From: Sneathiella sp. | GTDB lineage: Bacteria; Pseudomonadota; Alphaproteobacteria; Sneathiellales; Sneathiellaceae | Direction of reading: 5' to 3' | Assembly: GCA_002732675.1 (NCBI GenBank) | Contig: NVRR01000046.1 | Span: forward strand, 1-14,969 | Length of the DNA stretch: 14,969 nucleotides | Shown here: piece by piece, positions 92 to 14,969 of the stretch | Position numbering within the stretch: position 1 is the first letter of the stretch | Layout: every line of letters starts with the position of its first letter | Notes under the pieces: generated by a model | What the model was told of the DNA's origin: nothing | The model's input: the letters and a program-made list of their open reading frames with translations, nothing else | Databases searched by the model: none | Translations under genes and position numbers: made by a program

Positions 92-358
92 ATGAAAAGC
101 AGCAAATTTAGCGAGAGTCAAATCATACGAGCTCTCAAGGAAAATGAACAAGGCAGATCCGTAGGTGATCTATCGAGAGAATTAGGAATAGATAAGAGTA
201 CGTTCTACTACTGGCGAAAGAAGTATGGTGGTATGGAACAGCAGCAACTAAAGCGCTTAAAAGAGCTTGAAGAAGAAAACAATAGGCTCAAGCAGATGTA
301 TGCTGATGTGAGTCTGGATGTAAAAATGCTAAAAGACGTACTGTCAAAAAAGTTCTAA
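92..358 (+). CDS. IS3-family transposase OrfA (helix-turn-helix protein)
   Basis: This 88-residue protein is the DNA-binding subunit of an IS3-type transposase. Residues 5-45 fit the HTH_Tnp_1 fold (SESQIIRALKENEQGRSV, then LSRELGID and STFYYWRKKYGG). The rest is a leucine-zipper-like coiled coil rich in L, E and K (about 50-85), used for multimerisation in this family. The length is normal and the frame looks intact. It ends in a run of A followed by a stop, which forms the frameshift site used to make the OrfAB fusion. No strong Shine-Dalgarno sequence precedes the ATG. Composition matches orfB and differs from the rest of the window. Confidence 0.9.
   Translation: MKSSKFSESQIIRALKENEQGRSVGDLSRELGIDKSTFYYWRKKYGGMEQQQLKRLKELEEENNRLKQMYADVSLDVKMLKDVLSKKF
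346..352 (+). promoter_or_regulatory. Programmed -1 frameshift heptamer A_AAA_AAG
   Basis: In the orfA frame the codons before the stop read TCA AAA AAG TTC TAA, which gives the heptamer A AAA AAG in the phase needed for tandem slippage. A -1 slip enters an open frame (open from 307) that continues without a stop into orfB, adding VLKPSDKRVRAKHLIKAYV before the orfB core. This is the standard IS3-family way of making the active OrfAB transposase. Here the fused product would still be truncated. Confidence 0.8.
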
Positions 359-1026
359 AGCCTTCCGACAAAAGAGTTCGAGCAAAGCATCTCATCAAAG
401 CATATGTAATTCCTATTATCCGCGCCTGCAAAGTTGTAGGTCTTAGTAGATCGATGTGGTATTACCAGAGTAAAAAAGATGATAGTGAAGTTATCGATAA
501 GTTAACCGAGCTTGCTGAGTCGTACCCTACAAGAGGTTTTGATGAGTATTATCATAAAATCCGTCGTGAAGGCTTAAAATGGAATAGAAAACGAGTGTTA
601 CGTGTGTATCGTGAGATGAAACTCAGTTTAAGGCGTAAGCACAAAAAGCGTTTGATTAAACGTGTAAAGCAACCTTTAGAAGTACCTTCAAAACTCAATG
701 AGTGTTGGAGTATGGATTTTATGAGTGATGCCCTTACCGATGGTAGAAAGGTGCGTGTATTTAATGTTATTGACGATTGCAACCGTGAAGCACTAGCTAT
801 AAATGCAGGTCTTTCATATCCAGCAAGAGCTGTTGTCGAAACACTGGAGTGCCTAAAAGAGGAAATAGGAATACCTAAATATGTGAGATGTGATAATGGT
901 CCAGAATTTATCTCTAAGACTTTTGTGAACTGGTGTAAAAAGAATTTTATAGAAATTAAGTATACACAACCTGGAATTTGGGCTGAATTTGCGGTTTTTG
1001 GCCCCGCAGAGAGCCCCGACTTTTAG
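352..1026 (+). pseudogene. IS3-family transposase OrfB, truncated DDE integrase
   Basis: The frame entered by -1 slippage encodes an OrfB with an HTH_21-type region (around YPTRGFDEYYHKIRREG) and the start of the rve integrase core. An internal ATG at 454 gives 190 residues. Counted from that ATG, the first catalytic Asp is D88 (CWSMDFMSD) and the second is D147 (RCDNGPEF). Family members continue after YTQPG with a stretch carrying the third catalytic residue, Glu, within an IERFN-like motif. Here residues after 174 are unrelated (IWAEFAVFGPAESPDF), encoded by GC-rich flank, and end at a chance stop. The protein therefore lacks the catalytic Glu and the C-terminus. Usual OrfB length is near 270-290 residues. 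Confidence 0.85.
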
Positions 1027-1177: not shown

Positions 1178-2536
1178 CTAGCCGCCAACAGCCGCCGTGA
1201 TCAGTGGTGGGAATAGTTGCTGCAAAGCCCGGTTCCACCGCGTGATCGGCTGTTCTTCGATAAAGATGATGTCGTCAGGGCGCATTTCCATCTGCGTGGC
1301 CAAGGTAAGGTTGACGGCATTTGAGGCGTCCAAATGCCAAGCGGTGACGGCACCAAAACCCTCTACCCCTACCCCGGCGCGCAAGACATAAATCTGCGCT
1401 GGATTGCCGGTTTCGGTGCTAAACCCGCCGCTGCCATAGAGCACATCGGCAAGGCTGGCTTGGCGGCCATAAGGCAGCGCAAACCGGCTTTGCTCATTCA
1501 CCTCACCGGCGAGATAGACATAGTCACGTTCCTCAGCACCGAGATCGGTGCGCGCCTGAAACAGGCCGCGCGCCTCGTCTAACGTGGCGCGGCGCAGCGC
1601 CACCTCGTTTTGCAACTCAAGCAGCGCTTGCGTCCTGTCAGCCCGGCGCAGAACGGTCAGGTTCACCTGTTGCTCATAATAGTTGAGCGCCCGGTCAAGA
1701 TCATAGCCGGTATCGACAAACACACTGTCACCCGCGACCATGGTCAGCGCCCGCAGCTCACCCAGCCGGTTATAGTCGCGCAAAGGTATCTGATAGAGTG
1801 TGCCGTCGCGGTAGATACGGATTGAGCCAAATTGTGGATCGCCCACGCGGACACCGCCCGCAAGGGTCAGCGCTTCGGCCAGTGTCGGCGGGCTGAGCGT
1901 GATCGGGATAACCGAGGCCGAACCAACGGCGCCGCCCACATTGATACGCGCCGAATTAAACCCCGCAATTTCAAGAGCAAAGGCCGGGTCTAGCCCACTT
2001 TCGACAAAGCGACGAAACAGCGAGGCTTCGGCCTCTTCAATGGTCATATTCGCCAGCGGAATAGAGCCGATTTCAGGGATGGTTACCGCGCCATCATCAC
2101 GCACAGTGTAGTTCTGGCGGTTGTTTTCAGATGCCGCACCGCCGGTCCATGCATCTGGGCTGACAGTGGCCACCCGCGTCGCCAGCCGCACAACATCGCC
2201 AATGCCAATACGGTACGGCCCACCAGCGCCATTAGGCGGCGGCCGCAGCTCTAGCCTGCCAACCTGCACATCTGGCACTTGCGGCGCCGGTGGCAACGTA
2301 CTGGTGCCGCGCAGATTGCCGCCGCCCGTGACCTGACTAAAGTAGCCCGGCAAATTGCGCGGTGTATAGGCTTGGCGGTTGGCCAGAATAATGTTCTCAC
2401 GGGTGATCGGCATAACGCGCACGTCAAGCCCCTGAGCCTGTTGGCTAACGGTGGGGCTGAAGTATGTCAGCCCGCAGCCCGCAAGACCAAGTGCGGTGCT
2501 AACAAGCCCCGCCCGGATCGCTGATATCCTGCGCAT
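1178..2536 (-). CDS. Wza-like polysaccharide export lipoprotein
   Basis: This 452-residue outer-membrane auxiliary (OPX) protein should form the exit channel for the polymer. A lipoprotein signal is clear: basic MRR start, hydrophobic stretch, lipobox LAGC with Cys21. The polysaccharide export domain starts near residue 107 (PYRIGIGDVVRL) and continues through YTVRDDGAVTIPEIG (143-157). SLBB-type segments follow around 198-248 and 338-386 (VYLAGEVNEQSRFALPYGRQ). Between them, about 280-330, is a helical, charged and Gln-rich stretch that could be a coiled coil. The end (ITRWNRALQQLF) resembles the amphipathic C-terminal helix that crosses the outer membrane in Wza. The start has a good ribosome site (GAGG, 7 bases before ATG). 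It is the last gene of the block, after the YjbF-like gene. Confidence 0.88.
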   Translation of the reverse strand: MRRISAIRAGLVSTALGLAGCGLTYFSPTVSQQAQGLDVRVMPITRENIILANRQAYTPRNLPGYFSQVTGGGNLRGTSTLPPAPQVPDVQVGRLELRPPPNGAGGPYRIGIGDVVRLATRVATVSPDAWTGGAASENNRQNYTVRDDGAVTIPEIGSIPLANMTIEEAEASLFRRFVESGLDPAFALEIAGFNSARINVGGAVGSASVIPITLSPPTLAEALTLAGGVRVGDPQFGSIRIYRDGTLYQIPLRDYNRLGELRALTMVAGDSVFVDTGYDLDRALNYYEQQVNLTVLRRADRTQALLELQNEVALRRATLDEARGLFQARTDLGAEERDYVYLAGEVNEQSRFALPYGRQASLADVLYGSGGFSTETGNPAQIYVLRAGVGVEGFGAVTAWHLDASNAVNLTLATQMEMRPDDIIFIEEQPITRWNRALQQLFPPLITAAVGG

Positions 2537-2612: not shown

Positions 2613-3245
2613 TTATAGTTTTTCGGTCGTCAAGTAGCCAATTTCAGGGCCGACCCATTGGCGCGCGCGCCACATTGCCCCTTCATGACCAAGCCAATAG
2701 GTGTTTTCAATCATAACGTCGCTTGAGTGGCACGTTTCCGTATAGCGGTGTGTCTGCCGCTGCCGCTCAAAACTGACAAAGCTCTCAGCCACGGGGGCTG
2801 ATAATGAGCATATGAATGATCGAAATACCGTTTGGCCATTACCGCCAAGGTAAGAGTGAATACGGGGGTAATCTGCGCCACCCCCGCCGTTTAGAGCGGC
2901 CAATGTGCCTGACACATCAGCCGAAATCAGATCGTAGCCCAAGGCCCGCGTGGCCACCAAGACACCATTGTTGAGCGAAAGCGTGACCCCGTCAGCGGTG
3001 GTCCAAACCTCAACCGCGCCATTATGCGCCACCTGCGCCAGCGTCGCTGACAGGCCCAGCTCGGGCAATTCGGCCAGCAACAGCAAGCGGCCTGCCCCGT
3101 CAATTTGCGCGCGGGTTAGGCTGGCGCGGGCGTTGTTTGCAGGCACATCGCGGCCAAACAGCGTGTCTGTCAGTTGGCTCAGCCCGCCGCTACAGCCGGT
3201 GAGCAACAAAGTTGCTGCCGTCAATATGCCAACAAAGCGGGTCAT
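2613..3245 (-). CDS. YjbF/GfcB-family capsule lipoprotein
   Basis: This 210-residue protein has a lipoprotein signal with lipobox LLTGC (Cys18). The body is beta-rich, and the C-terminal part carries marks typical of YjbF/GfcB proteins as I recall them: two spaced cysteines (C146, C172) and the ending YWLGHEGAMWRARQWVGPEIG (given here as a landmark at 183-203; key residues Y183, W184, W192, Q196, W197, G199, P200, G203). Such lipoproteins accompany YjbH in exopolysaccharide or group 4-type capsule operons; the biochemical role is not established. The ATG overlaps the stop of the YjbH-like gene by four bases (ATGA), so translation is probably coupled. The Wza-like gene follows after 76 bases. 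Confidence 0.8.
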   Translation of the reverse strand: MTRFVGILTAATLLLTGCSGGLSQLTDTLFGRDVPANNARASLTRAQIDGAGRLLLLAELPELGLSATLAQVAHNGAVEVWTTADGVTLSLNNGVLVATRALGYDLISADVSGTLAALNGGGGADYPRIHSYLGGNGQTVFRSFICSLSAPVAESFVSFERQRQTHRYTETCHSSDVMIENTYWLGHEGAMWRARQWVGPEIGYLTTEKL

Positions 3246-5383
3246 TGCCAGAACCTGCCCCAGCTATCGAACAAAGCCGGTTCTTGTGACTGGCGCACAG
3301 TTTCATAAAGCCGCCCGTCAACATTAAGCCGCGCGCCGCCGTCGCGCCACACTGGGCGCAGGGTAATGTTTGAGCTGGTCTGCGTCGGCTGGCCGTTGAT
3401 CCAGCTGACAGGCACCGTCACCCGGATACCTTTGTCAAACGCGCCCTCGCCAAAATCATCAAATGGTACATCGGTAAGTGTTGCAAAAGCGCCCAGCCGC
3501 CAGCCGCTTTCAAACTCGCGGTCGAGCGACAAGGTGCCGCCCCAATCGCCCGCCAAGTAGCGGCCAACATCGAGCTGGCCGTGATAGCCGCGCCCCATAT
3601 CCCAATAGCCCGAGATATGGCCGTTAACGATGTTATAGTCTTGCAGACCAAACAGCTGGTCAAAGTCACGCTGGTGGGCATAGTTCAGCTCTGCGCCAAC
3701 AGCGAACCGGCTGTCATTTGGTTTCCATAATAGCTCAGCCGAAGCGCCTGCAAACATTGGTTCAAGATAGCCAACTGTTACCCGGCCAAAGAGCTCTTGT
3801 CCGGGGCGGAAGTAATACGCCGCCGTGAGGCGCGGAATGGTCGTACCGCCGCCGCCATCATAAAGGTTCGAGTCGCTGCGCACATGCGGCAGGATCGAGT
3901 CTGAGACGCGGGTTGATTGGTCAAGCGTGCCAACAATCCGCTGGCGGATAGCGCCCGAGATGTTCAGCCCCGGCCGGGGGCGATAATCGGCGTAAATATC
4001 AACGCCAAGGTCAGCGCGCAGTGGCTGGTCGGGGTCAAAGAAGCTCGGCGCAATATAGGGGGCAATGCCGTAATGCAGCTGCGGATATAGCCCCGGCAGT
4101 GGCTCGGCCATGCCCGTCACACCGCTAATCTGAGCGCGGGCATAGCTGGCCCATGCGCCATCTACATCGTTCTCCAGACTTTCAAGATCGCGACGGCTAA
4201 GCACCACCGATGTAATAGCCACGCCTTGCGACATAACAATGATCTCAAATTCTTCGATATTTTCAGGCAAAGTTCGCGTCAATATCCGCGCCGCCCGGCC
4301 CACCGCCTGCGCCGTTGCCGGATAGGATGTGTTTTCAATCTCAACCCGTGCGCGCGCCCCGCCCATGCGTAGCCCGTGCAAAGCAATGCCCTGGCCTTCC
4401 ATCGCCGCCTCAGTATTCGACCGCACAGCGCCGATACTGCGCCCGCCAACAAAGTCTGCGGCCCGGCGCACCGGCAGCGGCGACACACGCAGCCCCGGCC
4501 CCATCGGCGGAATATCGGGGTTGAGCGCATATGTCAGCTGAAAGCCCAGCTCTGAGCCATAAAGGTAGTTGGCACTGACAGTCAGCCTGTCGGTCGCCGC
4601 ATAAGACGCGCCAATATTAAACGGGGCGTTTACGTCAAAGGCCGAACCATCTTCATGCGGATAAGCATCTGATGAATATTCGGCGACAAAACGCAGCCGC
4701 TCAGTGGCCTGCCATTCGATCCCGCCGAACAAAGCCGCATCGCCGTGAAACAGATTGCTTGTGTCGATTTGCCCGCCGGTCGCGGTTTGCGAGCGTGCGC
4801 CGCGCGTGTCCCAGCCGTCGCCCAAGAAACTCAGCGGATTATCAAAGCCGTTTACCGTGCCCAGCCGCCCCCAACCAAGACCAAGGGTTACCTGAATACC
4901 GCGACCAACAGACTTGGTTGCCGCGACATATTCAGAGCTAAAGAAGCTGGTGCCGAGAAAGTCGTTCACCCCAACCGAGATCGCCGGCACGTATGTGCCC
5001 TCTTCAACCAACAGGTATTTGAGCGAGAAGCTGCGATCAAATACATAGTCGTAAAGTGTGTCGCCGCCATCGGGGCGAATGTCATGCAGCAGCGAATAGC
5101 GAAAACTGCCCGACAAGCGCGGCGTCATCTGAAAGGTCAGCGTGTCGCGCGTGGTGTTCTGAAAATGACTGTAGGTCAGGGCGACTTCGCCGTCAGGGGC
5201 CGAGCGGCCGCTGGGCATGTCGATCAGCCCCGGAACGCCGTAAGTATTATATGATACCGGTGCCCGCAATCCGGTGCTTTCCGCCGTCACATTTTGGGCC
5301 TGTGCTTGAAAAGCTACAAAACCTGGCGCAATCAGCGCAACGCAAAGTCCGACGAGGCCGGTATTTCGAAACAAACGTGCCAT
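3242..5383 (-). CDS. YjbH-family outer-membrane polysaccharide protein
   Basis: This 713-residue protein begins with a Sec signal peptide (hydrophobic 8-25, probable cut after AQA near 29). The mature N-terminus reads VSYNTYGVPGLIDMPSGRSA, the hallmark opening of YjbH/GfcD-type proteins. The rest alternates aromatic and polar residues in many predicted beta-strands, as in an outer-membrane barrel (for example the strands around FRYSLL, ANYLYGSELGFQLTYAL, LWKPNDSRFAVGAELNYAH). A middle domain (about 340-400) looks soluble. YjbH proteins are linked to exopolysaccharide secretion; the mechanism is unproven. Length is normal. The start lacks a strong Shine-Dalgarno, but the signal peptide fits this ATG. 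It overlaps the next gene by ATGA. Confidence 0.85.
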   Translation of the reverse strand: MARLFRNTGLVGLCVALIAPGFVAFQAQAQNVTAESTGLRAPVSYNTYGVPGLIDMPSGRSAPDGEVALTYSHFQNTTRDTLTFQMTPRLSGSFRYSLLHDIRPDGGDTLYDYVFDRSFSLKYLLVEEGTYVPAISVGVNDFLGTSFFSSEYVAATKSVGRGIQVTLGLGWGRLGTVNGFDNPLSFLGDGWDTRGARSQTATGGQIDTSNLFHGDAALFGGIEWQATERLRFVAEYSSDAYPHEDGSAFDVNAPFNIGASYAATDRLTVSANYLYGSELGFQLTYALNPDIPPMGPGLRVSPLPVRRAADFVGGRSIGAVRSNTEAAMEGQGIALHGLRMGGARARVEIENTSYPATAQAVGRAARILTRTLPENIEEFEIIVMSQGVAITSVVLSRRDLESLENDVDGAWASYARAQISGVTGMAEPLPGLYPQLHYGIAPYIAPSFFDPDQPLRADLGVDIYADYRPRPGLNISGAIRQRIVGTLDQSTRVSDSILPHVRSDSNLYDGGGGTTIPRLTAAYYFRPGQELFGRVTVGYLEPMFAGASAELLWKPNDSRFAVGAELNYAHQRDFDQLFGLQDYNIVNGHISGYWDMGRGYHGQLDVGRYLAGDWGGTLSLDREFESGWRLGAFATLTDVPFDDFGEGAFDKGIRVTVPVSWINGQPTQTSSNITLRPVWRDGGARLNVDGRLYETVRQSQEPALFDSWGRFWQ

Positions 5384-5439: not shown

Positions 5440-6192
5440 TCAGGACGTGCAAAAGCGCAACGCGGCATCATCAATCAGTGCTGCGCTCAGCCTGCCCGTG
5501 GCAAATGCACCAGTATCAACACCAATCCGGCCGTCAATTGCACTAGCCTCAGGCTGGATAACATGACCATGCACAACCCATAGCCCGTCGCCCCGCGCTC
5601 TTGTGGTAAACTTGGGATGGCCCCATATCAGTGACCTCTGCGCCTGCTGATACATTGCCAGATCAGGATCAGCACCGGCATGAGTGATGCAGATATTTCC
5701 GCTTTTCCATTGATATGGCAAATCTCGCATCCAAGCGATCAGCGGCGCCCCCATCGCCGCCGCCAACGCATCGCGCGCGGCAAGCAGCTTGTCTGGGCTG
5801 GCAATGTCAGAAATATTTCCTATCCCGTAGCTGCTCAGCGTTTGCAGCCCGCCATTGCGCAGCCAGCGGCGACCGCGGTCTTCTGGCTGGTCCAAAAACT
5901 CAAGACACATGACTTCGTGATTTCCCATCAGGCAAATGAAGTCGGGTTGTTCAAACAGCAAAGCCAGAACCCCGGCGCTGTCTTCGCCCCGGTCAACATA
6001 ATCGCCGACAAATACAATCTGATGCTCAGGCGCTTCGCTTTTTAGGGTGTCAAGCAGCGCCACAAGCTCAGTGGTGCAGCCATGAACATCGCCAATCACA
6101 GCCAGCTTTTCACCCGGGCGTAACTCTGCTGTAAATTTAGGCGGTAAAAAGCGCCGTATCACCGGCGCAATAAGATCTGTCAGCCGTGTCAT
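5440..6192 (-). CDS. PPP-family metallophosphatase (serine/threonine phosphatase-like)
   Basis: This 250-residue protein has the metal-binding motifs of the phosphoprotein phosphatase family in order: GDVHG (34-38), GDYVDRG (63-69), GNHE (90-93), THAG with H171, and VHGH (207-210). It is compact and of the bacterial type related to ApaH/PrpA/PphA, with no signal peptide, so it is cytoplasmic. Substrates could be phosphoproteins or a phosphorylated small molecule; sequence alone does not say. It sits between the fibre-like gene and the export block. One possibility is control of polysaccharide synthesis, since such systems often use protein phosphorylation, but no kinase is visible here. An AAGG motif lies 8 bases before the ATG. 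Confidence 0.88.
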   Translation of the reverse strand: MTRLTDLIAPVIRRFLPPKFTAELRPGEKLAVIGDVHGCTTELVALLDTLKSEAPEHQIVFVGDYVDRGEDSAGVLALLFEQPDFICLMGNHEVMCLEFLDQPEDRGRRWLRNGGLQTLSSYGIGNISDIASPDKLLAARDALAAAMGAPLIAWMRDLPYQWKSGNICITHAGADPDLAMYQQAQRSLIWGHPKFTTRARGDGLWVVHGHVIQPEASAIDGRIGVDTGAFATGRLSAALIDDAALRFCTS

Positions 6193-6251: not shown

Positions 6252-8102
6252 CTACTGCCCTGACTTTTGCGCCAACCAAGTGTTTATCCCGGTGATGCTC
6301 GGCCCATCGAGCGGTCCTTCTGTCGCAACATAGGCATATAGCTGGGGTGGGGCAGGCAGCGCTCTGCTGCCCGCGCCGATGCTCAGCCCGGTCGCCACAT
6401 TTGCACCAGACGCATTGCCATGCGCTTCAACCGCGGCACTGCCAAGATCCGGCATTTCTGCGCTCAACAAGTCATCGGTCTGGTCAAACGCCAACCAGCT
6501 CAGCCCGCCACCAGATTGGTAAAGCGGCCGCAGCCCCGCGCCAATCTGCACGGCATGCGCTCCCGGTACACCATCTGGCCCACGCACCTGCTGAACTATC
6601 CGCTCAATGCCAGTGCTAAAGCCAATATCAGCACTGGTGCCCGCGCCAATAGCGGGTGAACCGACACCAAAGACATAGTCAGCCATCAGCAGCGTGTCCG
6701 CACTCCCAACCAGTGGATCGGCGTAAATAGTACCACTAATCGACACCCCAGCGCTGATCAAATCAGCGTCGAATGCCTTGCCGTCGCTCAGAATGTTATT
6801 GGCAAATGTGCTGCCCGCCGCCGCCATATATCCGGCATTGGCCGCGTCAACATAGATAAAGTTCCACGCACCAGTGAAGATGTTATCCTCAATGGTAAAG
6901 TTTGCCCCAACACCGGGATCAAAATTGACACGAATAAACTCGTTCAGCCCCGTCGCTGGCCCCGCAATAACGCAGTTGCGCACCGTAATAGCGCCCGGCC
7001 CGCGCTGACGGAATGTCAAAAATCCGTAGCATTCGTCAAACGTCAAAACAGAATTTGCATCCTGATTGGCGTTGACAAAACTTGCCGTAACCTGCGTCGC
7101 GGAGCCCGCCGCCGCGACCAGCTCAACCCGCTGGGTCAATGTGCCCAGCTGACACCGCGTCAGCGTTGACGCGTTAAAGCTGATCCGGGTTTTGGCCGGT
7201 TGCGCCAAAAACACACAATCTTCAAACAGCGCCGTACAACTCGTGCCGGTCAGCGCGCCAACACCCTGCGACGCGGTAGCACCGCTATCATCAAACTGGC
7301 ACCGATAATGCTCGGATGTTGAGCTGCCGACATGCACAAACGCATATTTAGTGCAGTCACGAAACACACAATCATAGGCCCGCGCCATGCCCGTACCATG
7401 CGCCGAAATCCCGTCAACACAGTTGCTAATTTCGCAATCATAGGCCTCAATCGTGCCGTCAGAACAACCAATGCCGTTGCCAGTACCGGCGTTAAACCCG
7501 GTAATGTGCAGCCCGTTGCCATAGATGCGTATCATCGCACCCGCGCTGGCATCGGTCGCACTTTTATTGGTGCCAAGCGTGTAATTCACCACGCAGCCGG
7601 GCTCAAAGACCAGCTCAAGCACCGCCCCCGCAGGCGGGCTGCTCAGGATCGCAATCGCCTGATCCGTATAGGTGCCAGCCTTGATCAGAACCCGCGTCGT
7701 GGTGGCAGCCGTAAGAATGCCCACAGTCAGCTTGCTCTCCAAACTGGCCCAAGCCGCACCAGCGCTCAGCCCATCATTGGCGTCTGAGCCAGCACCGGCA
7801 TCAACATAGTAATCAAACGGGCCCTCAAGCCCCCGGTACATGGTTGAAATGCCGAACTTCGCGGTCAGCACAGCGCCAGGTCCCTGCCCGCCCCAGCTCG
7901 ATTTATCGAGCATAAGGCCAACAGGCTGACCAACCGCACCAACAGGCAAAATGCCCATCGCATCTTGGTATAATGTCGCCATATCTGACGGATCAAACAA
8001 TGCGCCCCCCCCGCCACTCACAAAGAGACTGGCAGGGTCGAAGACGACACTTTGGCTAACTTTTGTTGCATAAAGCGGGCCGAGCCCCAGACCAATCTGC
8101 AT
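6252..8102 (-). CDS. Right-handed beta-helix fibre/spike-like protein
   Basis: The chosen start gives 616 residues; it has GGGAG 7 bases upstream and lies 4 bases after the preceding stop. An upstream in-frame start at 8162 would overlap that gene. Residues 35-68 (LFDPSDMATLYQD, then GQPVGLMLDKS) resemble a module seen in phage and GTA structural proteins. Residues 98-125 (YYVDAGAGSDANDG) open a parallel beta-helix that runs to about 490, with repeated short turns such as YDCEISNC, YDCVFRDC, FEDCVF and VRNCVI, and a typical end (DPLVG, GSPAIGAGT). Residues 518-616 look like a shortened concanavalin/LamG-type module (WLAFDQTDD, INTWLAQKSG). There is no signal peptide. It is probably a spike or fibre that contacts polysaccharide; a lyase or epimerase role is possible, but no catalytic set is evident. 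Confidence 0.75.
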   Translation of the reverse strand: MQIGLGLGPLYATKVSQSVVFDPASLFVSGGGGALFDPSDMATLYQDAMGILPVGAVGQPVGLMLDKSSWGGQGPGAVLTAKFGISTMYRGLEGPFDYYVDAGAGSDANDGLSAGAAWASLESKLTVGILTAATTTRVLIKAGTYTDQAIAILSSPPAGAVLELVFEPGCVVNYTLGTNKSATDASAGAMIRIYGNGLHITGFNAGTGNGIGCSDGTIEAYDCEISNCVDGISAHGTGMARAYDCVFRDCTKYAFVHVGSSTSEHYRCQFDDSGATASQGVGALTGTSCTALFEDCVFLAQPAKTRISFNASTLTRCQLGTLTQRVELVAAAGSATQVTASFVNANQDANSVLTFDECYGFLTFRQRGPGAITVRNCVIAGPATGLNEFIRVNFDPGVGANFTIEDNIFTGAWNFIYVDAANAGYMAAAGSTFANNILSDGKAFDADLISAGVSISGTIYADPLVGSADTLLMADYVFGVGSPAIGAGTSADIGFSTGIERIVQQVRGPDGVPGAHAVQIGAGLRPLYQSGGGLSWLAFDQTDDLLSAEMPDLGSAAVEAHGNASGANVATGLSIGAGSRALPAPPQLYAYVATEGPLDGPSITGINTWLAQKSGQ

Positions 8103-8106
8103 ATGG

Positions 8107-8364
8107 TTACTCCCAAGCAATAAGCGTAGCGCTGGTGCCCGTCGCCATGACGCGGTGGGCACGAAACGGTAAAACTTGACCCGAAGTGAGCGTGTAGCTC
8201 AACTGGTTGCCAAGCCGGTCGACGATAACGGCGGTGCCATCGGCCGCACAAAATATCGCCCGTGGGATCGGATCCAGATCATTATTGTCATCTGGGGTGA
8301 CAGCGCGATGCGTGCTGGCAGGCGCGTTCAGGCTTTGGGTGAAATGTCGGAAGTTGTCGGCCAT
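8107..8364 (-). CDS. Spike base protein-like, RCAP_Rcc01079 family
   Basis: This 85-residue protein has a pattern I recognise from the spike base proteins of gene transfer agents and related phages: AVTPDDNNDL (21-30), RAIF with a short glycine turn, VDRLGNQLSYTL, and a C-terminal LPFRAHRVMATGTSAT followed by an aliphatic end. In Rhodobacter capsulatus the family member Rcc01079 works with Rcc01080 as head spikes that bind the capsule of recipient cells. Here the next gene, 4 bases downstream, encodes a long beta-helix protein, matching a base-plus-fibre pair. The ribosome site is good (AGAGG, about 7 bases before ATG). Assignment is from remembered motifs, not a search; no other phage structural gene is nearby. 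Confidence 0.62.
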   Translation of the reverse strand: MADNFRHFTQSLNAPASTHRAVTPDDNNDLDPIPRAIFCAADGTAVIVDRLGNQLSYTLTSGQVLPFRAHRVMATGTSATLIAWE

Positions 8365-8485
8365 GTCAGATCCTCTGAATTTTGCACCGCTCGCATGGGC
8401 GGCAGGCCTAAAGGATTAAACCTTACGGGGTTTACCAATTGCAGCCGCCCCGCTCGGCACAGGCCAACCGGGCGCAACAAACCGT
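8365..8485 (-). other. Intergenic region with two hairpins upstream of the spike-like pair
   Basis: This is the longest gap in the minus-strand array. One GC-rich imperfect hairpin (8447-8473) pairs TTGGC with GCCGA and, across a G/G mismatch, GCCCG with CGGG(G)C around a CTGT loop; no T-run follows. A second stem pairs GGTTTA with TAAACC (8417-8434) around 6 bases. No convincing -35/-10 pair is seen. The gap could separate transcription of the sugar genes from the spike genes. Confidence 0.4.
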
Positions 8486-9265
8486 CTAGCGGCCCGACAG
8501 CCAATAAACCGCAACTCCCAAATATTCGCGCAAGGCCAAAGTCAGCGTGCCGAGCCCAGCATGCAGATCCCAAGCCAGACCTGTCTCCATTCGATTGTCA
8601 TAAAAATCAACAGGATAGGCGGTAACATTCTGCCAACCAGCGCGTTCAAAACTGCGCATGGCCCGGCCCATATGAAAGGCGCTGGTGACCAATATCCACG
8701 GGTCATCGCCGCTTGGTTGCACCATGTCATAAAGCAAAGTGGCGTTCTCGTAGGTGTTGCGTGCATCAACCTCTATGGTCAACCGCTCAGCAGCAACGCC
8801 ATGCAAAACAAAGAATTCATGCATAATCTCAGCCGTGCTTACCGCTCCCTGCGGCGCGGCGCGCGCCTCATCATAGCCGGTGTAAAGCAATCTGGCCTGC
8901 TCAAACCGATGTGCCAGCTCCAGACCAGCGGTAAAGCGCCCCGCCTCATTACGCTCAACTATTTGCTGCCATTCAGCAGCATCAAGGCTCACCTCCATGC
9001 CCCCAAGAATGATTATTCCGGCCGGGGCCACCAGCACAGGCCCAGCCGCATATTGGCGTTCTAGCCCGTTAAGCAACCAGTCGCTCAGCGGTGTCGCGGC
9101 GATGCTAAGTGCCAAAGCGCAAATTATCCCGCCCAGATAGGTGGCCGCGCGAAACCGCCCGCGCAGCACCAGGAGCAAGGCCAAAGCTAGCCCGAGAAAG
9201 AACAGATGTTTGGGTTTTAGCAGCCACCAGCCGAGCTTTGAGGCAATGAAAAATGCATTTTCCAG
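8486..9265 (-). CDS. DUF218/ElyC-YdcF-like membrane protein, probable CTG start
   Basis: The protein belongs to the DUF218 family (ElyC/SanA/YdcF type), linked to envelope polysaccharide metabolism. The frame has no ATG, GTG or TTG near its 5' end until a TTG at 9184, which would delete the first membrane segment. A CTG at 9265 lies 9 bases after a strong GGAGG (9279-9275) and gives 259 residues with the family-typical opening FFIASKLGWWLLKPKH. Two hydrophobic segments follow (about 20-34 and 42-59). Then come the domain landmarks IIILGG (84-89), NTYENA (170-175) and TSAFHMGRAM (194-203). The gene starts 18 bases after ugd in the same reading frame. Its enzymatic role is unknown. Confidence 0.8.
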   Translation of the reverse strand: MENAFFIASKLGWWLLKPKHLFFLGLALALLLVLRGRFRAATYLGGIICALALSIAATPLSDWLLNGLERQYAAGPVLVAPAGIIILGGMEVSLDAAEWQQIVERNEAGRFTAGLELAHRFEQARLLYTGYDEARAAPQGAVSTAEIMHEFFVLHGVAAERLTIEVDARNTYENATLLYDMVQPSGDDPWILVTSAFHMGRAMRSFERAGWQNVTAYPVDFYDNRMETGLAWDLHAGLGTLTLALREYLGVAVYWLSGR

Positions 9266-9283: not shown

Positions 9284-10450
9284 CTAATCAGCGCCAAAAA
9301 GATCGCGGGTAAAGACCTTTTCGCTGACATCATCCAGCTCAACAGAATGACGGTTTGCCAAGATCAAATCGGAGCGCTGTTTAAAGTCGGCCAAGTCAGT
9401 AATCACTTCAGACCGGAAAAACTCCTGATCATTCAGCTCAGGTTCATAGACAACGACCTCAATCCCTTTGGATTTGATCCGCTTCATAATGCCCTGAATA
9501 GAGCTTTGGCGGAAATTGTCGCTACCAGCCTTCATCACCAACCTGTAAATGCCGACAACGCGCGGTTTACGCCGCACAATCTGGTCAGAGAGGAAGTCCT
9601 TCCGGGTCCGGTTGGCATCAACAATCGCCCGCATCAGGTTTTGTGGCACATCAGAATAGTTGGCCAAAAGCTGTTTGGTATCTTTGGGCAGACAATAGCC
9701 ACCATAGCCAAATGACGGATTATTATAGCCAGAGCCCACGCGTGGGTCGAGGCAAACGCCTTCGATAATTTCCCTTGGATCTAGATCAAAGGCCAGCGCG
9801 TAACTGTCCAGCTCGTTAAAGAACGCAACCCGCATCGCCAGATACGTATTGGCAAATAGCTTAATCGCCTCAGCCTCAGACGGCTCGGTAAACAATGTCG
9901 GAACCTCGTCTTCCTGCGAGCCCTCAACCAACAAAGCCGCAAAGCGGTGCGCGGCCTCGGTCTTGTCGCCAACAACAATGCGCGACGGGTGCAAATTGTC
10001 ATGCAAAGCACGGCCTTCGCGCAAAAACTCAGGACTGAACATTATTTTGTCGCGGCCAAAACGCGCCCGAATACTGGCGATAAACCCAACCGGAATGGTC
10101 GATTTAACCACAATCGTCGCCTTTGGTGCCAGCTTGCCCGCCAGCTCTATCACCGCCTCAACCGATGCGGTGTCAAACCGCGATGTTTCAACATCATAGT
10201 TGGTCGGCGTGGCGATGATCACAAAATCAGCGTCGCTATAAGCATCAACCGGGTCAAGGGTCGCGCGCAAGTTCAGGTCGCGATTGGTAAACCAATCTTC
10301 AATATCAACATCAATGATCGGGCTTTTGCGCGCATTGATCATATTGACCCGGTCTTCAGACAGATCAAGTGCAACAACTTCGTGATTTTGGGACAAAAGC
10401 AAGGCGTTTGACAGCCCGACATAGCCGATACCGGCAACTGCTATTTTCAT
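9284..10450 (-). CDS. ugd: UDP-glucose 6-dehydrogenase
   Basis: The enzyme oxidises UDP-glucose to UDP-glucuronate with two NAD+. With the start at 10450 it has 388 residues, the size of the E. coli enzyme. The Rossmann motif GIGYVG is at 7-12. SPEFLREG (139-146) and the lysine/asparagine segment [10 protein letters not shown] (194-203) are present, as is the catalytic cysteine motif [10 protein letters not shown] with Cys253. The start has AGAGG 6 bases upstream; a longer frame to 10513 would overlap fcl and adds an unrelated leader. It supplies UDP-glucuronate to the UXS-type decarboxylase encoded earlier in the operon, and perhaps directly to the polymer. Confidence 0.95.
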
Positions 10451-10473
10451 GATCAGCCTCTGTAACTCACATA

Positions 10474-11445
10474 CTAATCCCGGATTTTCGTTCCGGGTTG
10501 TTCTAAATACCACTGGTAGGTCTGCGCCAGCCCAATCGCGAGGTCAATCGACGCATGCCATCCCATATTATCCAGCCGAGACACATTCATCAGCTTGCGC
10601 GGCGCCCCGTCTGGTATTGTCTTGTCAAAGACGATGCGCCCGCTATAGCCCGCAATTTCGGCAACCATATGCGCCAATTGTGCAATTGAAATGTCCTTCC
10701 CGGTGCCAACATTGATATGGCTAAGCATCGGCTCTGTATTGGCAGCGTAAGTCTCGCGGTCCAAATCCATGACAAAAAGCGACGCGGCGGCCATGTCATC
10801 AACATGCAAGAATTCGCGCTTAGGCGTCCCGCTGCCCCAGATCACAACTTCTGCCGCGCCGCTCTGCGAAGCCTCATGAAACCGCCGGATCAGAGCAGGC
10901 AGAACATGGCTATGCTCAGGATGAAAGTTGTCGCCCGGCCCGTAAAGGTTGGTCGGCATCACCGCGCGGTAATCGGTGCCATGCTGCCGGTTATAACTTT
11001 CGCAAAGCTTGATCCCTGCAATCTTGGCAATCGCATAAGGCTCATTTGTCGGCTCCAGCGTCCCGGTCAGCAAACTGTCCTCGCGCATCGGCTGCTCCGC
11101 CAAACGCGGATAGATGCACGACGAGCCCAAAAACAACAGCTCGCGCACACCCGCGCCAAAGGCCTCGCCAATAGTATTGCACTGTATGAGCAAATTATCT
11201 TGAATAAAATCAGCCGGGTAAGTGTTGTTTGCTAGTATTCCACCAACTTTGGCCGCCGCCAAGATTACCGCATCTGGCCGTTCTTGGCGCATAAATGCGC
11301 GTACCGCTGCTTGGTCGCGCAGGTCCAGCTCAGCGCTGGTGCGCAAGATCACATCCGCATCACCACGCGCCAAAAGTTGGCGCAAAAGCGCGCCGCCAAC
11401 AAGCCCGCGATGGCCGGCAAGGAATATACGTTTTTTTTGGCCCAT
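10474..11445 (-). CDS. fcl: GDP-L-fucose synthase
   Basis: This epimerase/reductase turns GDP-4-keto-6-deoxymannose into GDP-L-fucose using NADPH. From the ATG at 11445 it has 323 residues. The SDR cofactor motif GHRGLVG is at 11-17, the catalytic Ser108, Tyr137 and Lys141 (YAIAK) are present, and Cys110 and His180 match the residues used for epimerisation, each one position beyond the E. coli numbering. That alignment supports this start over one 36 bases upstream. The gene lies 10 bases after the methyltransferase gene and 23 before ugd. Codons 3-5 contain a run of eight A. Confidence 0.95.
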
Positions 11446-11455
11446 GCGCTCCGCT

Positions 11456-12112
11456 CTAGCCCTGCACCGGTCGGCGCGCAAAGGCGATCATTGATTTGGC
11501 AAAAGGAGGAATACGCCCAACCCGGCCGAAACTCGGCTCCTCAAAGCCTGCATCTTTTAACAGAGTGCCCAGCGTTTTCATCGACCAGAACTTGATATGA
11601 CCATGCGCCCATAATGCCGTAAAATGGTTGTCTAGCTTGCCAGTTACGGCAAGTGCCACATTTTTCACATAGCCATGATACGGCGTTGAAACAATGGCAA
11701 GCCCGCCCGGCTCAACCAATGAGAACAAGGTTTTTGCATAATCGCGCGGCGCATAGACATGCTCAACAACTTCGAGGCTGATCACCAAAGGAAACCGCCC
11801 AAAACGGTCTTCCAGATCTTCATAGGCCGAGCCGACACCAAGGTCGAGATCACCAAAAGCCCTTTGCGCCTGGGCAATACCGTCCTCTGACGGATCAACA
11901 CCGGTTATTTGCCAGCCTGCCCGTGCATAATGGGCGGCAACACTGCCATTCCCGCAGCCAAGATCAAAAAGCCGCGGCGGTTCTTGCAGCCCCTGCAACC
12001 TCTGCTGCTCTTTGGCCATTGCCACATCAATATAAGGCAGCAAGTAGCTATGGGCATGAGAATGCGCTGCGCTGGCAAATGCGTAGCCCGAAATACTATT
12101 TATTTCTTTCAT
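11456..12112 (-). CDS. Class I SAM-dependent methyltransferase
   Basis: This 218-residue cytoplasmic protein has the class I methyltransferase fold: motif [10 protein letters not shown] (49-57), an acidic ribose-binding residue in VDPS (72-75), and motif ISLEVVEHV (111-119) followed by [14 protein letters not shown]. The fold resembles UbiG-type enzymes, but the position between gmd and fcl points to a sugar or nucleotide-sugar acceptor, for example O-methylation of a deoxyhexose or of the growing chain. A strong purine-rich ribosome site (GGGGAGGGG, 12126-12118) precedes the ATG. It starts 18 bases after gmd. Substrate is inferred from context only. Confidence 0.85.
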
Positions 12113-12130: not shown

Positions 12131-13249
12131 TCACTCCGCCGAAAGCGGCAGCTCCAGCCCGTGGCTTTTCAAAAGCGCGTGACGCCGTGCCGTCTTGTGA
12201 TCCTCTGCCACCATCTGTGCACACATTGCGCGGGCGGTTATCTCCGGTTCCCAGCCCAGCTGGCGCTTGGCCTTTGATGGATCCCCCAGCAGCGTCTCAA
12301 CCTCAGCGGGCCTAAAATAGCGCGGGTCAATCCGCATAATCGTCTGACCGGGTTTCAACGCGGGCGCCAGATCACCACTCACAGTGTCAACAATCGCCCG
12401 CTCGTCCAGCCCCTCACCTTCAAACCGCAGACCAATCCCCAAATCCTCAGCCGCCCAAGTGATAAACCCCCGCACACTATGCTGCTTGCCAGTGGCAATC
12501 ACATAATCCTCAGGCGCGTCCTGCTGCAACATCAGCCATTGCATTTTCACATAGTCTTTGGCATGGCCCCAGTCGCGCAAAGCACTGATATTACCCATAT
12601 AAAGACAAGGCTCCTGCCCCAGTGCAATATTGGCCAGCCCGCGGGTGATCTTGCGGGTCACAAAGGTCTCGCCTCGGCGCGGGCTTTCATGGTTAAACAA
12701 TATGCCGTTGCAAGCATACATGCCGTAGGCCTCGCGGTAGTTTACAGCAATCCAATAGGCATAGAGTTTGGCCACGCCGTAGGGGCTACGCGGATGAAAC
12801 GGCGTCGTCTCGGTTTGCGGCGATTCTTGCACCAATCCGTAAAGCTCCGATGTCGATGCCTGATAAAACCGTGTCGTCTTTTCAAGCCCCAAAAACCGGA
12901 TCGCCTCCAGCAGCCGCAACGTGCCTATGCCGTCAACATCGGCCGTATATTCAGGCGCTTCAAAACTGACCGCTACATGGCTCTGCGCCCCAAGATTATA
13001 GACCTCATCAGGCCTGATTTCGGACATCAGCCGCATCAGATTAGACGTGTCCGTCAGGTCGCCATAATGCAGCCGAAACCGGCCGCCCGCCACGTGCGGG
13101 TCTTCATATATATGGTCAATCCGCGCGGTGTTAAACGACGATGCCCGCCGCTTAAGCCCATGAACCTCATAGCCCTTTTCAAGTAACAACTCTGCCAGAT
13201 ATGATCCGTCTTGCCCGGTAACCCCGGTGATGAAAGCCGTTTTGCTCAT
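12131..13249 (-). CDS. gmd: GDP-mannose 4,6-dehydratase
   Basis: The enzyme converts GDP-D-mannose to GDP-4-keto-6-deoxy-D-mannose, the first step to GDP-L-fucose. It is 372 residues long, as expected. The nucleotide motif [10 protein letters not shown] starts at 9, and the catalytic set Thr133, Glu135 (ASTSELYG), Tyr157 and Lys161 (YGVAK) falls at the same numbers as in the E. coli enzyme. [15 protein letters not shown] and the [10 protein letters not shown] segment are also typical. Its ATG overlaps the stop of the glycosyltransferase gene by ATGA, which implies coupled translation. The product feeds fcl two genes downstream. Confidence 0.96.
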
Positions 13250-14022
13250 GTGCCCGCCGATGATTTGTTGAAAAATTGCGGAAGCTTAGAAATGTTCTTC
13301 CAAGCCAATGCGCCAATGCCGCCCGTGCCGGTGCTGCGCAAAGCCCGCAGGTCTTCGCGGCTTTTGGTAATGATCTGCTTCACCGAGCGGTTGCTCTCGC
13401 CGCCAACCCGCATCCGCACCAGCACTTCGGGGATATAAGCAGGGCGAAGGCCACCCCGGCCAAACCAGCGCAACATTGCCTCATAATCCGCCGCAATCCG
13501 GTAGCTGGTGTCGTAGCTGCCCTGATCCGCAAAAACCGAAGCGCGCATATACAGTGTCGGATGCGGCGGCATCCAACCACGCCGCAGCTTTTGCGGCGAA
13601 AATTCTCCAGAGGTCCAATGCCGCAGCACACGCCCTGAACCGTCAGCAGCCACATATTGCAGATCGCCATACACAGCCATCACGGTCGGCACCTCAAACG
13701 CCTGCGCCACCCTGCTCAGCACGCCACGCCCGGCAAGCTCATCATCCGAATGCAACAGCCCAATCACATCGCCCGTCGCCCGCGCAATTCCCTTGTTGAT
13801 CGCATCGTAAATGCCGCCATCAGCAGCACTTTGCAGGCTGATCTTTGGCCCGCTGTCCCAGCCGCGCAAAATATCCAGCGTGCCGTCGCTAGACCCGCCA
13901 TCCTGCACCACATGTTCGACATTGGCGTAGTCCTGCGCCGCCAACGATTGCAGCGAAGCGCCAATCGTGTCGGCCCGGTTATAAACCGCCGTCACCACCG
14001 ATATGGTCAGGTCATTCTGCAA
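13246..14022 (-). CDS. Family 2 glycosyltransferase
   Basis: This is a GT-A fold glycosyltransferase of family 2, probably adding a sugar to the lipid-linked repeat unit at the cytoplasmic face. The N-terminus [14 protein letters not shown] (7-20), DGGSSDGT (41-48), [17 protein letters not shown] (69-85) and the metal-binding SDDE (92-95) are typical; the middle has [14 protein letters not shown] chose the TTG at 14022 because GGAG lies 7 bases upstream and it overlaps the end of the UXS gene by only a few codons, giving 258 residues. A longer frame to 14070 adds residues not seen in the family. The donor sugar is unknown; fucose or xylose would fit the neighbours. Confidence 0.88.
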
Positions 14023-14969
14023 GTTCAAGCTCCGACAAGCGCTGACGAAAATAGCTGATTGTCTTCTCAAGCCCTTCTTTTAGCTCAATATTTGGTTCCC
14101 AGCCAAGCGTCTCTTTGGCCAGTGTAATATCAGGCCGCCGCTGGCGCGGATCATCCTCGGGCAAAGGCAGCCGCTCAATGCCCTGCTCTTTGCCTGTCTG
14201 TGCCACCACCTGCTCAGCCAACTCAAGAATGGTAAACTCAGACGGGTTGCCAATGTTGATCGGTCCCGTCACATCAGGCCCAGTGCCCATCAGCGTCACC
14301 ATTCCGTCGACCAGATCATCGACATAGCAGAACGACCGCGTCTGGCTGCCATCACCATAAATGGTGATCGGCTTGCCAAGCAATGACTGGACAATAAAGT
14401 TGGACACGACCCGCCCATCGGCATGGTGCATACGCGGCCCATAGGTGTTAAAAATCCGCATAACCTTTATCTCCAGCCCGTGCTGGCGGTGGTAGTCAAA
14501 GAACAGCGTCTCTGCGCAGCGTTTACCCTCGTCATAACAAGAGCGCGGGCCAATCGGGTTCACATTACCCCAATATTCTTCGCGCTGCGGATGCTGGTCA
14601 GGGTCGCCATAAACCTCGCTGGTTGAGGCCTGCAAAATCTTGGCCCCCAGCCGCTTTGCCAGCCCCAACATGTTGATCGCCCCATGCACGCTGGTCTTGG
14701 TCGTCTGCACCGGATCATGTTGGTAATGCACCGGGCTCGCCGGACAGGCCAGATTATAGATCTCATCGACCTCAACATAGAGCGGAAAGGTCACGTCATG
14801 CCTGATAAACTCAAACCGAGGGTCGCCGATCAGATGCTCGATATTGCGCTTAGACCCGGTAAACAAATTATCAAGGCACAGCACATCATGCCCCGCCGCC
14901 ATCAGCCGGTCGCATAGATGCGAGCCAATGAAACCCGCGCCGCCGGTTACAAGTATCCGTTTGCGGCTG
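14012..14969 (-). CDS. uxs: UDP-glucuronate decarboxylase (UDP-xylose synthase), 5' end cut by window
   Basis: This extended SDR enzyme converts UDP-glucuronate to UDP-xylose. The frame runs past the first ATG (14902) to the window edge and includes the cofactor motif [15 protein letters not shown], so the true start lies just outside; 318 residues are visible. [10 protein letters not shown] and the catalytic Tyr and Lys in [11 protein letters not shown] identify it, as do [12 protein letters not shown] and the IFNTYGPRM segment typical of UXS. Substrate comes from Ugd, encoded later in the same operon. The stop overlaps the start region of the glycosyltransferase gene. Confidence 0.94.

Follow-up and report, generated by a model that had tools for sequence, protein, structure and literature searches.

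The locus described here raises the question of why a gene pair resembling the head spike of the Rhodobacter capsulatus gene transfer agent (RcGTA) should stand in the middle of a run of capsule genes. At stake is how selection keeps a particle whose production kills the cell. For the gene transfer agents (GTAs), Kogay et al. propose that biofilms confine the benefit to close kin (PMC10883770). A general linkage of spike and coat genes would be a direct genetic route to kin-type targeting. The window, i.e. the whole stretch of DNA analysed (14,969 nucleotides), contains the following features:

92-1026, plus strand: IS3-family transposase pair at the left end, second ORF short (190 aa) (Pfam/NCBIfam scan)
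1178..2536, minus strand: Wza-type polysaccharide export protein (Pfam scan)
2613..3245, minus strand: YjbF/GfcB lipoprotein (Pfam scan)
3242..5383, minus strand: YjbH exopolysaccharide protein (Pfam scan)
5440..6192, minus strand: calcineurin-like phosphoesterase, directly beyond the fibre (Pfam/NCBIfam scan)
6252..8102, minus strand: ORF of 616 aa with the N-terminus MQIGLGLGPL, putative head-spike fibre (position and plug comparison with the RcGTA fibre)
6444..6563, minus strand: fibre residues 514-553, second half of a split module (comparison with other fibres)
6573..7808, minus strand: fibre residues about 99-510, likely beta-helix between both module halves (low fold confidence)
7884..8045, minus strand: fibre residues 20-73, first half of the split module (module contiguous in other fibres; piece also found in tailed phages)
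8073..8102, minus strand: fibre residues 1-10, candidate plug presumed to fit into the base pentamer (sequence)
8107..8364, minus strand: ORF of 85 aa, head-spike base of the Rcc01079/GhsA family
8450..8482, minus strand: weak match to the two-box element GTGTTGCG-N15/16-GCGYRCG (shuffle P 0.013)
8486..9184, minus strand: DUF218 (ElyC-like) membrane protein (Pfam/NCBIfam scan)
9284..10453, minus strand: UDP-glucose 6-dehydrogenase, Ugd (NCBIfam scan)
10474..11451, minus strand: GDP-L-fucose synthase, Fcl (NCBIfam scan)
11456..12112, minus strand: SAM methyltransferase (Pfam scan)
12131..13249, minus strand: GDP-mannose 4,6-dehydratase, Gmd (NCBIfam scan)
13246..14070, minus strand: family 2 glycosyltransferase, GT2 (Pfam scan)
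14012..14968, minus strand: sugar-nucleotide epimerase/dehydratase-like protein, incomplete at the contig end (ORF; no model above cut-off)

From left to right the genes are thus the IS3 element, Wza, YjbF, YjbH, phosphoesterase, fibre, base, DUF218, Ugd, Fcl, methyltransferase, Gmd, GT2 and the epimerase-like gene, and everything to the right of the IS3 element lies on the minus strand. A Wza-type exporter, YjbF and YjbH are all present, as in a Wza/YjbF/YjbH-type polysaccharide locus, and judged by its gene content the locus makes and exports a polysaccharide. The original prediction of a spike pair inside a run of capsule genes, without other phage genes, agrees with the Pfam and NCBIfam scans, which named no further phage gene among the proteins scanned (PHROGs were searched with the base and the fibre only), and the observation of a base/fibre pair in a capsule locus is confirmed. 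The further phage structural or replication genes expected of a prophage were not named in the window, and a defence system was rejected, with no PADLOC match for four proteins.

The 85-residue protein belongs to the Rcc01079/GhsA family of head-spike bases. It had first been described as a small protein with Rcc01079-like motifs, and a search against HMMs of the spike base family had been suggested. Such a search gave 91 bits against NCBIfam NF048002 ("spike base protein, RCAP_Rcc01079 family"; curated cut-off 28), next to a sequence match to Rcc01079 in PDB entry 6tb9 (E 4.5e-17) and a match to PHROG 12296 (E 2.3e-22). At these scores the family matches are far beyond chance; no Pfam model matched at E up to 1. 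The structure predicted from 20 aligned relatives (mean pLDDT 87.4) has a jellyroll fold like that of the RcGTA base, which is also its best PDB match (6tb9_A1; TM 0.89, rmsd 1.5, E 2.9e-8), followed by 8cjz, the capsid spike base of phage Carin1. RcGTA bases hold the capsid by their N-terminal end (PMC7296036), where the window base keeps the near-invariant Asp3 and Phe5.

The 616-residue protein is likely the matching head-spike fibre. Its ATG at 8102 lies directly after the base gene, 4 bases past the stop codon and on the same strand according to the ORF reading, and the protein begins with a plug-like Ile/Leu-Gly stretch (MQIGLGLGPL). It has been reported for RcGTA that an N-terminal Ile/Leu-Gly peptide plugs the fibre into the base (PMC7296036). 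Fibre candidates in the survey described below were defined as ORFs of at least 100 aa starting -20 to +40 bases from the base stop, which exist at 84 of 120 loci; an alternating hydrophobic, plug-like N-terminus was found in 43 of these 84 ORFs vs 68 of 865 control next-gene ORFs. The fold is less firm. The fibre scored 21.9 bits against the beta-helix model PF13229, below the cut-off of 25.9, with the match falling within the insert described next; there was no PDB sequence match, and the single-sequence AlphaFold model (pLDDT 36.8) was too poor for a fold search. For these reasons a beta-helix is likely but not proven, so that of the original description as a 616-residue beta-helix protein the ORF, its length and the 4-base spacing stand, while the fold has sub-threshold support only. 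The fibre is built of modules: its residues 1-73 and 514-553 match pieces which adjoin each other in relatives, among them L036, L099, L110 and L114. In the window fibre an insert of about 440 residues separates the two halves, and about 100 residues stand at the same place in another relative (L116). When polysaccharide-linked loci were compared, bases scoring above 60% of self were often paired with unrelated fibre bodies.

The base was then traced across genomes. It occurs in 110 of 296 genomes (295 genera sampled) of one alphaproteobacterial family, f21, in 7 of 29 genomes of one other family, and in 13 of 387 genomes sampled class-wide. Family f21 is probably the Rhodobacteraceae, as judged from its size, GTA content and company in the tree. 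The GTA core marker used, PF13547, is present in 263 of the 296 f21 genomes, namely in 106 of the 110 spike-bearing and 157 of the 186 spike-free ones (Fisher P 0.001, uncorrected for kinship). The GTA marker is also present in the second of these families, that of genome G026. Some genomes (e.g. G691, G425 and G622) hold two or three bases at different places, so their particles could bear mixed fibres.

Linkage to polysaccharide genes was surveyed at 120 of the 126 spike places in f21 (the 6 weakest were left out) by reading 9.8 kb to the left and right. The controls were 20 regions picked at random from these contigs, which are long and mainly chromosomal, and the polysaccharide reference set was drawn from the window and the plasmid spike loci. 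At least one polysaccharide gene was found at 74 of the 120 spike loci vs 1 of 20 controls (Fisher P 2.1e-6), and at least two at 60 of 120 vs 0 of 20 (Fisher P 8.0e-6). Accordingly, 60 loci were classed as polysaccharide, 14 as having a single polysaccharide gene, 2 as phage-like (by similarity to spike-bearing viral contigs) and 44 as other. These 44, with neither polysaccharide nor clear phage neighbours, mean that about a third of the spikes lie in ordinary chromosome; among their neighbours (three each, 132 proteins), as seen in the best 25 of 107 and the best 25 of 75 families, most were diverse chromosomal proteins, and portal, terminase and integrase matches were singletons. Relatives of the phosphoesterase stood near spikes at 8 of the 120 loci vs 0 of 20 controls; such relatives also lie near bases on several plasmids.

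The initiating sugar transferase PF02397 allowed a test independent of the window- and plasmid-derived reference set. In 80 of the 110 spike-bearing genomes it had 215 matches; with the 150 matches listed, which makes the observed counts lower bounds, at least 18 of 90 spike places had PF02397 within 10 kb (1.25 expected) and at least 31 had it within 25 kb (3.1 expected), where expectation assumes a mean genome size of 3.85 Mb and uniform placement.

In a tblastn search the base was found in 16 plasmid records, all of which were inspected. At least two annotated polysaccharide genes lie within 10 kb of the base in 13 of the 16 records, some of which are near relatives of one another. YjbH, a metallophosphoesterase and the spike base occur together on Leisingera sp. 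S132 unnamed6 and Roseivivax pTHAF40_a as well. In the remaining records, rfbA, rfbC and rfbD are near the base on the Acuticoccus plasmid, on Cereibacter pORIO5 the base lies beside housekeeping genes, and the Pseudorhodobacter turbinis plasmid is unannotated and gave no match to the polysaccharide reference set. Near position 10001 of Roseobacter litoralis pRLO149_63 (L019) the base departs from the family after about 60 residues, without a fibre behind it, and is probably a decayed copy. Immediate succession of parB and the base is seen on four plasmids (L017, L027, L029 and L030), two of them near-identical Roseivivax plasmids, and on Palleronia unnamed4 it lies beside repA.

The linkage of spike bases to polysaccharide loci is thus general within one large family and extends to plasmids, as borne out by the survey of related genomes that had been proposed for it. 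The adjacency of spike and capsule genes in R. capsulatus, which the original prediction had mentioned, is described in PMC10218006 and was already known. No report of the general and plasmid linkage was found in the open-access literature searched; Westbye et al. 2016 and Hynes et al. 2016 may discuss homologues. What appears to be new is the generality of the linkage and its occurrence on plasmids.

The sequences upstream of the bases were also compared. TTAAC, given as a CtrA half-site in PMC6363796, occurs within 130 bases upstream of 27 of 120 bases vs 63 of 888 intergenic controls (P 9.2e-7); none was found in the 130 bases upstream of the window base. At the late GTA loci of R. capsulatus, which include ghsA/B, PMC9638019 reports CtrA half-sites together with a putative class of GafA sites. 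The two-box element, which was derived from the same upstream sequences in which it was counted, precedes 18 of 120 bases (0.58 on average and 3 at most after shuffling) at a distance of about 90-160 bases from the start codon (e.g. L071, L081 and L122). The weak match at the window base is located at -118 with the usual spacing, and the 1% threshold was passed by only 5 of 103 untrained loci. No copy of the element was seen at 17 terminase loci, which mostly belong to GTA clusters, and in 18 genomes chosen for carrying it there were 66 genome-wide matches vs 48 for the reversed pattern. A promoter shared with the GTA core was therefore rejected, and the two-box element is regarded as a spike-upstream element rather than a demonstrated GTA regulon signal.

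Because the base recurs beside sugar-coat genes in relatives and on plasmids, such clusters probably encode both a coat and a tool with which particles would grip this coat. In our judgement the window pair is, with some reserve, a two-gene RcGTA-type head-spike cassette in a capsule locus, likely dressing GTA heads with a fibre predicted to bind the neighbouring polysaccharide, and most likely a mobile cassette kept beside its probable receptor locus. By analogy to RcGTA, five bases would form a pentamer on a capsid vertex, and this pentamer would hold the fibre by its Ile/Leu-Gly peptide; the inserted domain of the fibre may then grip or trim the neighbouring polymer, and the carrier particle would be a GTA rather than a phage. 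The reading we would bet on is that GTA-type spike cassettes have been recruited to polysaccharide loci repeatedly, because spikes whose fibre fits the local coat would direct particles to cells that wear it. As receptor and adhesin genes sit together, a cell receiving the locus would obtain a coat and, with it, the equipment by which its own particles would find like coats.

The first alternative is that the pair is a phage head-spike module, recruited or left over, that serves a resident or infecting phage or sits on the phage capsid and has no role in a GTA. Several findings speak for phages: bases were found in 11 phage records and in 62 loci of viral contigs (6 and 56 in two scans), Rcc01079 is nearest to a protein of phage RcapNL in the base tree, rcc01079 and rcc01080 have phage relatives according to PMC8601537, the second structural match of the window base is the phage capsid entry 8cjz, fibre residues 20-68 match two phage proteins, and the bin of the window lacks a detected GTA core marker. 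Against it, the scans named no further phage gene in the window, phage-like loci number only 2 among the 120 surveyed, with few portal, terminase or integrase singletons among the 132 neighbours of the 44 other loci, and the base strongly co-occurs with GTA-bearing genomes. This alternative is rather unlikely, and the GTA-type cassette remains preferred.

The missing GTA marker leads to the origin of the contig. Its bin (G000; 2.36 Mb) is 65.9% complete, and PF13547 had 0 matches in this bin and in 17 of 17 congeners, 12 of which are at least 90% complete. The original prediction had suggested a search for a GTA core in the same genome and had named the lack of such a core or of a phage as grounds for refutation, so this part of it is not supported; the absence is weakened because the bin is incomplete and the contig shows signs of being foreign or misbinned. 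The spike base and YjbH are likewise absent from the 17 congeners, and the IS3 element, absent there too, has no other copy in the bin or in 29 relatives. In tetranucleotide usage the window thirds correlate with one another at 0.79-0.81 and with four other bin contigs at r 0.50-0.80, vs 0.80-0.87 among those contigs themselves, a comparison that covered no more than four stretches of 6 kb from the bin. This looks like a foreign or misbinned contig. In the tree of 162 bases the rows nearest to the window base are L056, L068, L007, L008 and L071, and the smallest strongly supported set including it has seven rows (SH-aLRT 97). L007 and L008 are from uncultured Alphaproteobacteria and Rhodobacteraceae; L056, L068 and L071 are from family f21, and their genomes hold PF13547. 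Composition, congener absences and tree neighbours together suggest a locus of the f21 kind, either acquired or misbinned, and without a core marker found in the bin, either the locus brought the cassette along or the contig is from a different organism.

These facts give some room to the alternative that the cassette is idle in this host, carried along with a Rhodobacterales capsule locus that was misbinned or gained by horizontal transfer: the base is absent from the congeners together with YjbH and the IS element, the tetranucleotides deviate, and PF13547 is missing from the bin. Yet both reading frames are open and full-length, the deviation was measured against a small part of the bin, and horizontally acquired loci commonly differ in composition and can still work. 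We regard an idle passenger as unlikely. As a last alternative, it is very improbable that the large protein is a secreted enzyme in its own right (a polysaccharide lyase, an esterase or a modifying enzyme), with the small protein only as its partner, for although a likely beta-helix in a capsule locus and the SASA or GDSL esterase domains in 2 of the 10 plasmid fibres scanned (none in the other 8) would suit such an enzyme, the fibre N-terminus has no apparent secretion signal and is plug-like instead, the base gene is conserved while fibre bodies differ, and the base keeps the near-invariant Asp3/Phe5 at what is the capsid-holding end in RcGTA (PMC7296036).

How spike cassettes came to their places was examined on the base tree. 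The polysaccharide (EPS) label changes 30 times on this tree vs a shuffled mean of 32.9 (minimum 23), i.e. the label has no phylogenetic signal, on a tree that is poorly resolved (few columns, 85 of 158 inner branches open); no sign of a single ancestral spike-polysaccharide linkage was seen. Given base relatedness, fibres and polysaccharide genes did not covary at 55 loci (partial Mantel r 0.03, P 0.15), and co-divergence of the two beyond the base found no support. The original prediction that adhesin and receptor genes both move and diverge together is thus unsupported in its second half; the first half, joint movement with the locus, agrees with the plasmids and the scattering on the tree.

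A wider reading may be offered tentatively, and we hold it to be possible rather than probable: capsule and exopolysaccharide loci and plasmids of Rhodobacterales would carry their own GTA adhesin, as a portable receptor-plus-spike unit with exchangeable fibres, a greenbeard aiming suicidal DNA donation at cells with the same coat. Since the spike would aim at the same coat, a cell acquiring the locus would join a new DNA-exchange group. If the linkage reading is true, plasmids could re-aim a chromosomally encoded GTA.

Several known systems can be set beside the window. TspA, the tailspike of RcGTA (rcc02623), is likewise a separately encoded GTA surface protein acting on an extracellular polymer; unlike the head spikes it is attached to the baseplate and reported as conserved among Rhodobacterales GTAs, and the available text of PMC13420450 does not describe it as capsule-linked. 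In Rhodobacter phage RcapNL (tail fiber protein, RcapNL_00029/00030) a base 49% identical to that of the window is followed by a plug-bearing protein, as here, but this pair lies in a phage genome with tail genes and no polysaccharide locus, and its second protein is short. The Rhodobacterales plasmids Leisingera sp. S132 unnamed6, Roseivivax pTHAF40_a and Roseobacter litoralis pRLO149_63 have the base among polysaccharide genes like the window, and the first two also have YjbH, YjbF and the metallophosphoesterase in common with it; they differ in being plasmid-borne and in fibre bodies unrelated in sequence, and the R. litoralis copy looks broken. The closest comparison is RcGTA itself, with the spikes Rcc01079/Rcc01080 (GhsA/GhsB) and the capsule genes rcc01081-rcc01086 of R. 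capsulatus. Its fibre has 325 residues vs 616 in the window, where a likely beta-helix is inserted in a split module, its capsule genes differ from the Wza/YjbF/YjbH, Gmd, Fcl and Ugd of the window, and a GTA core marker was not found in the window bin, unlike in the RcGTA system. Both systems have the same base family and predicted base fold, a base followed at once by the fibre, an Ile/Leu-Gly plug and adjoining polysaccharide genes. In R. capsulatus, the tagged RcGTA head spike fibre bound wild-type cells more than capsule-free cells, according to PMC10218006.
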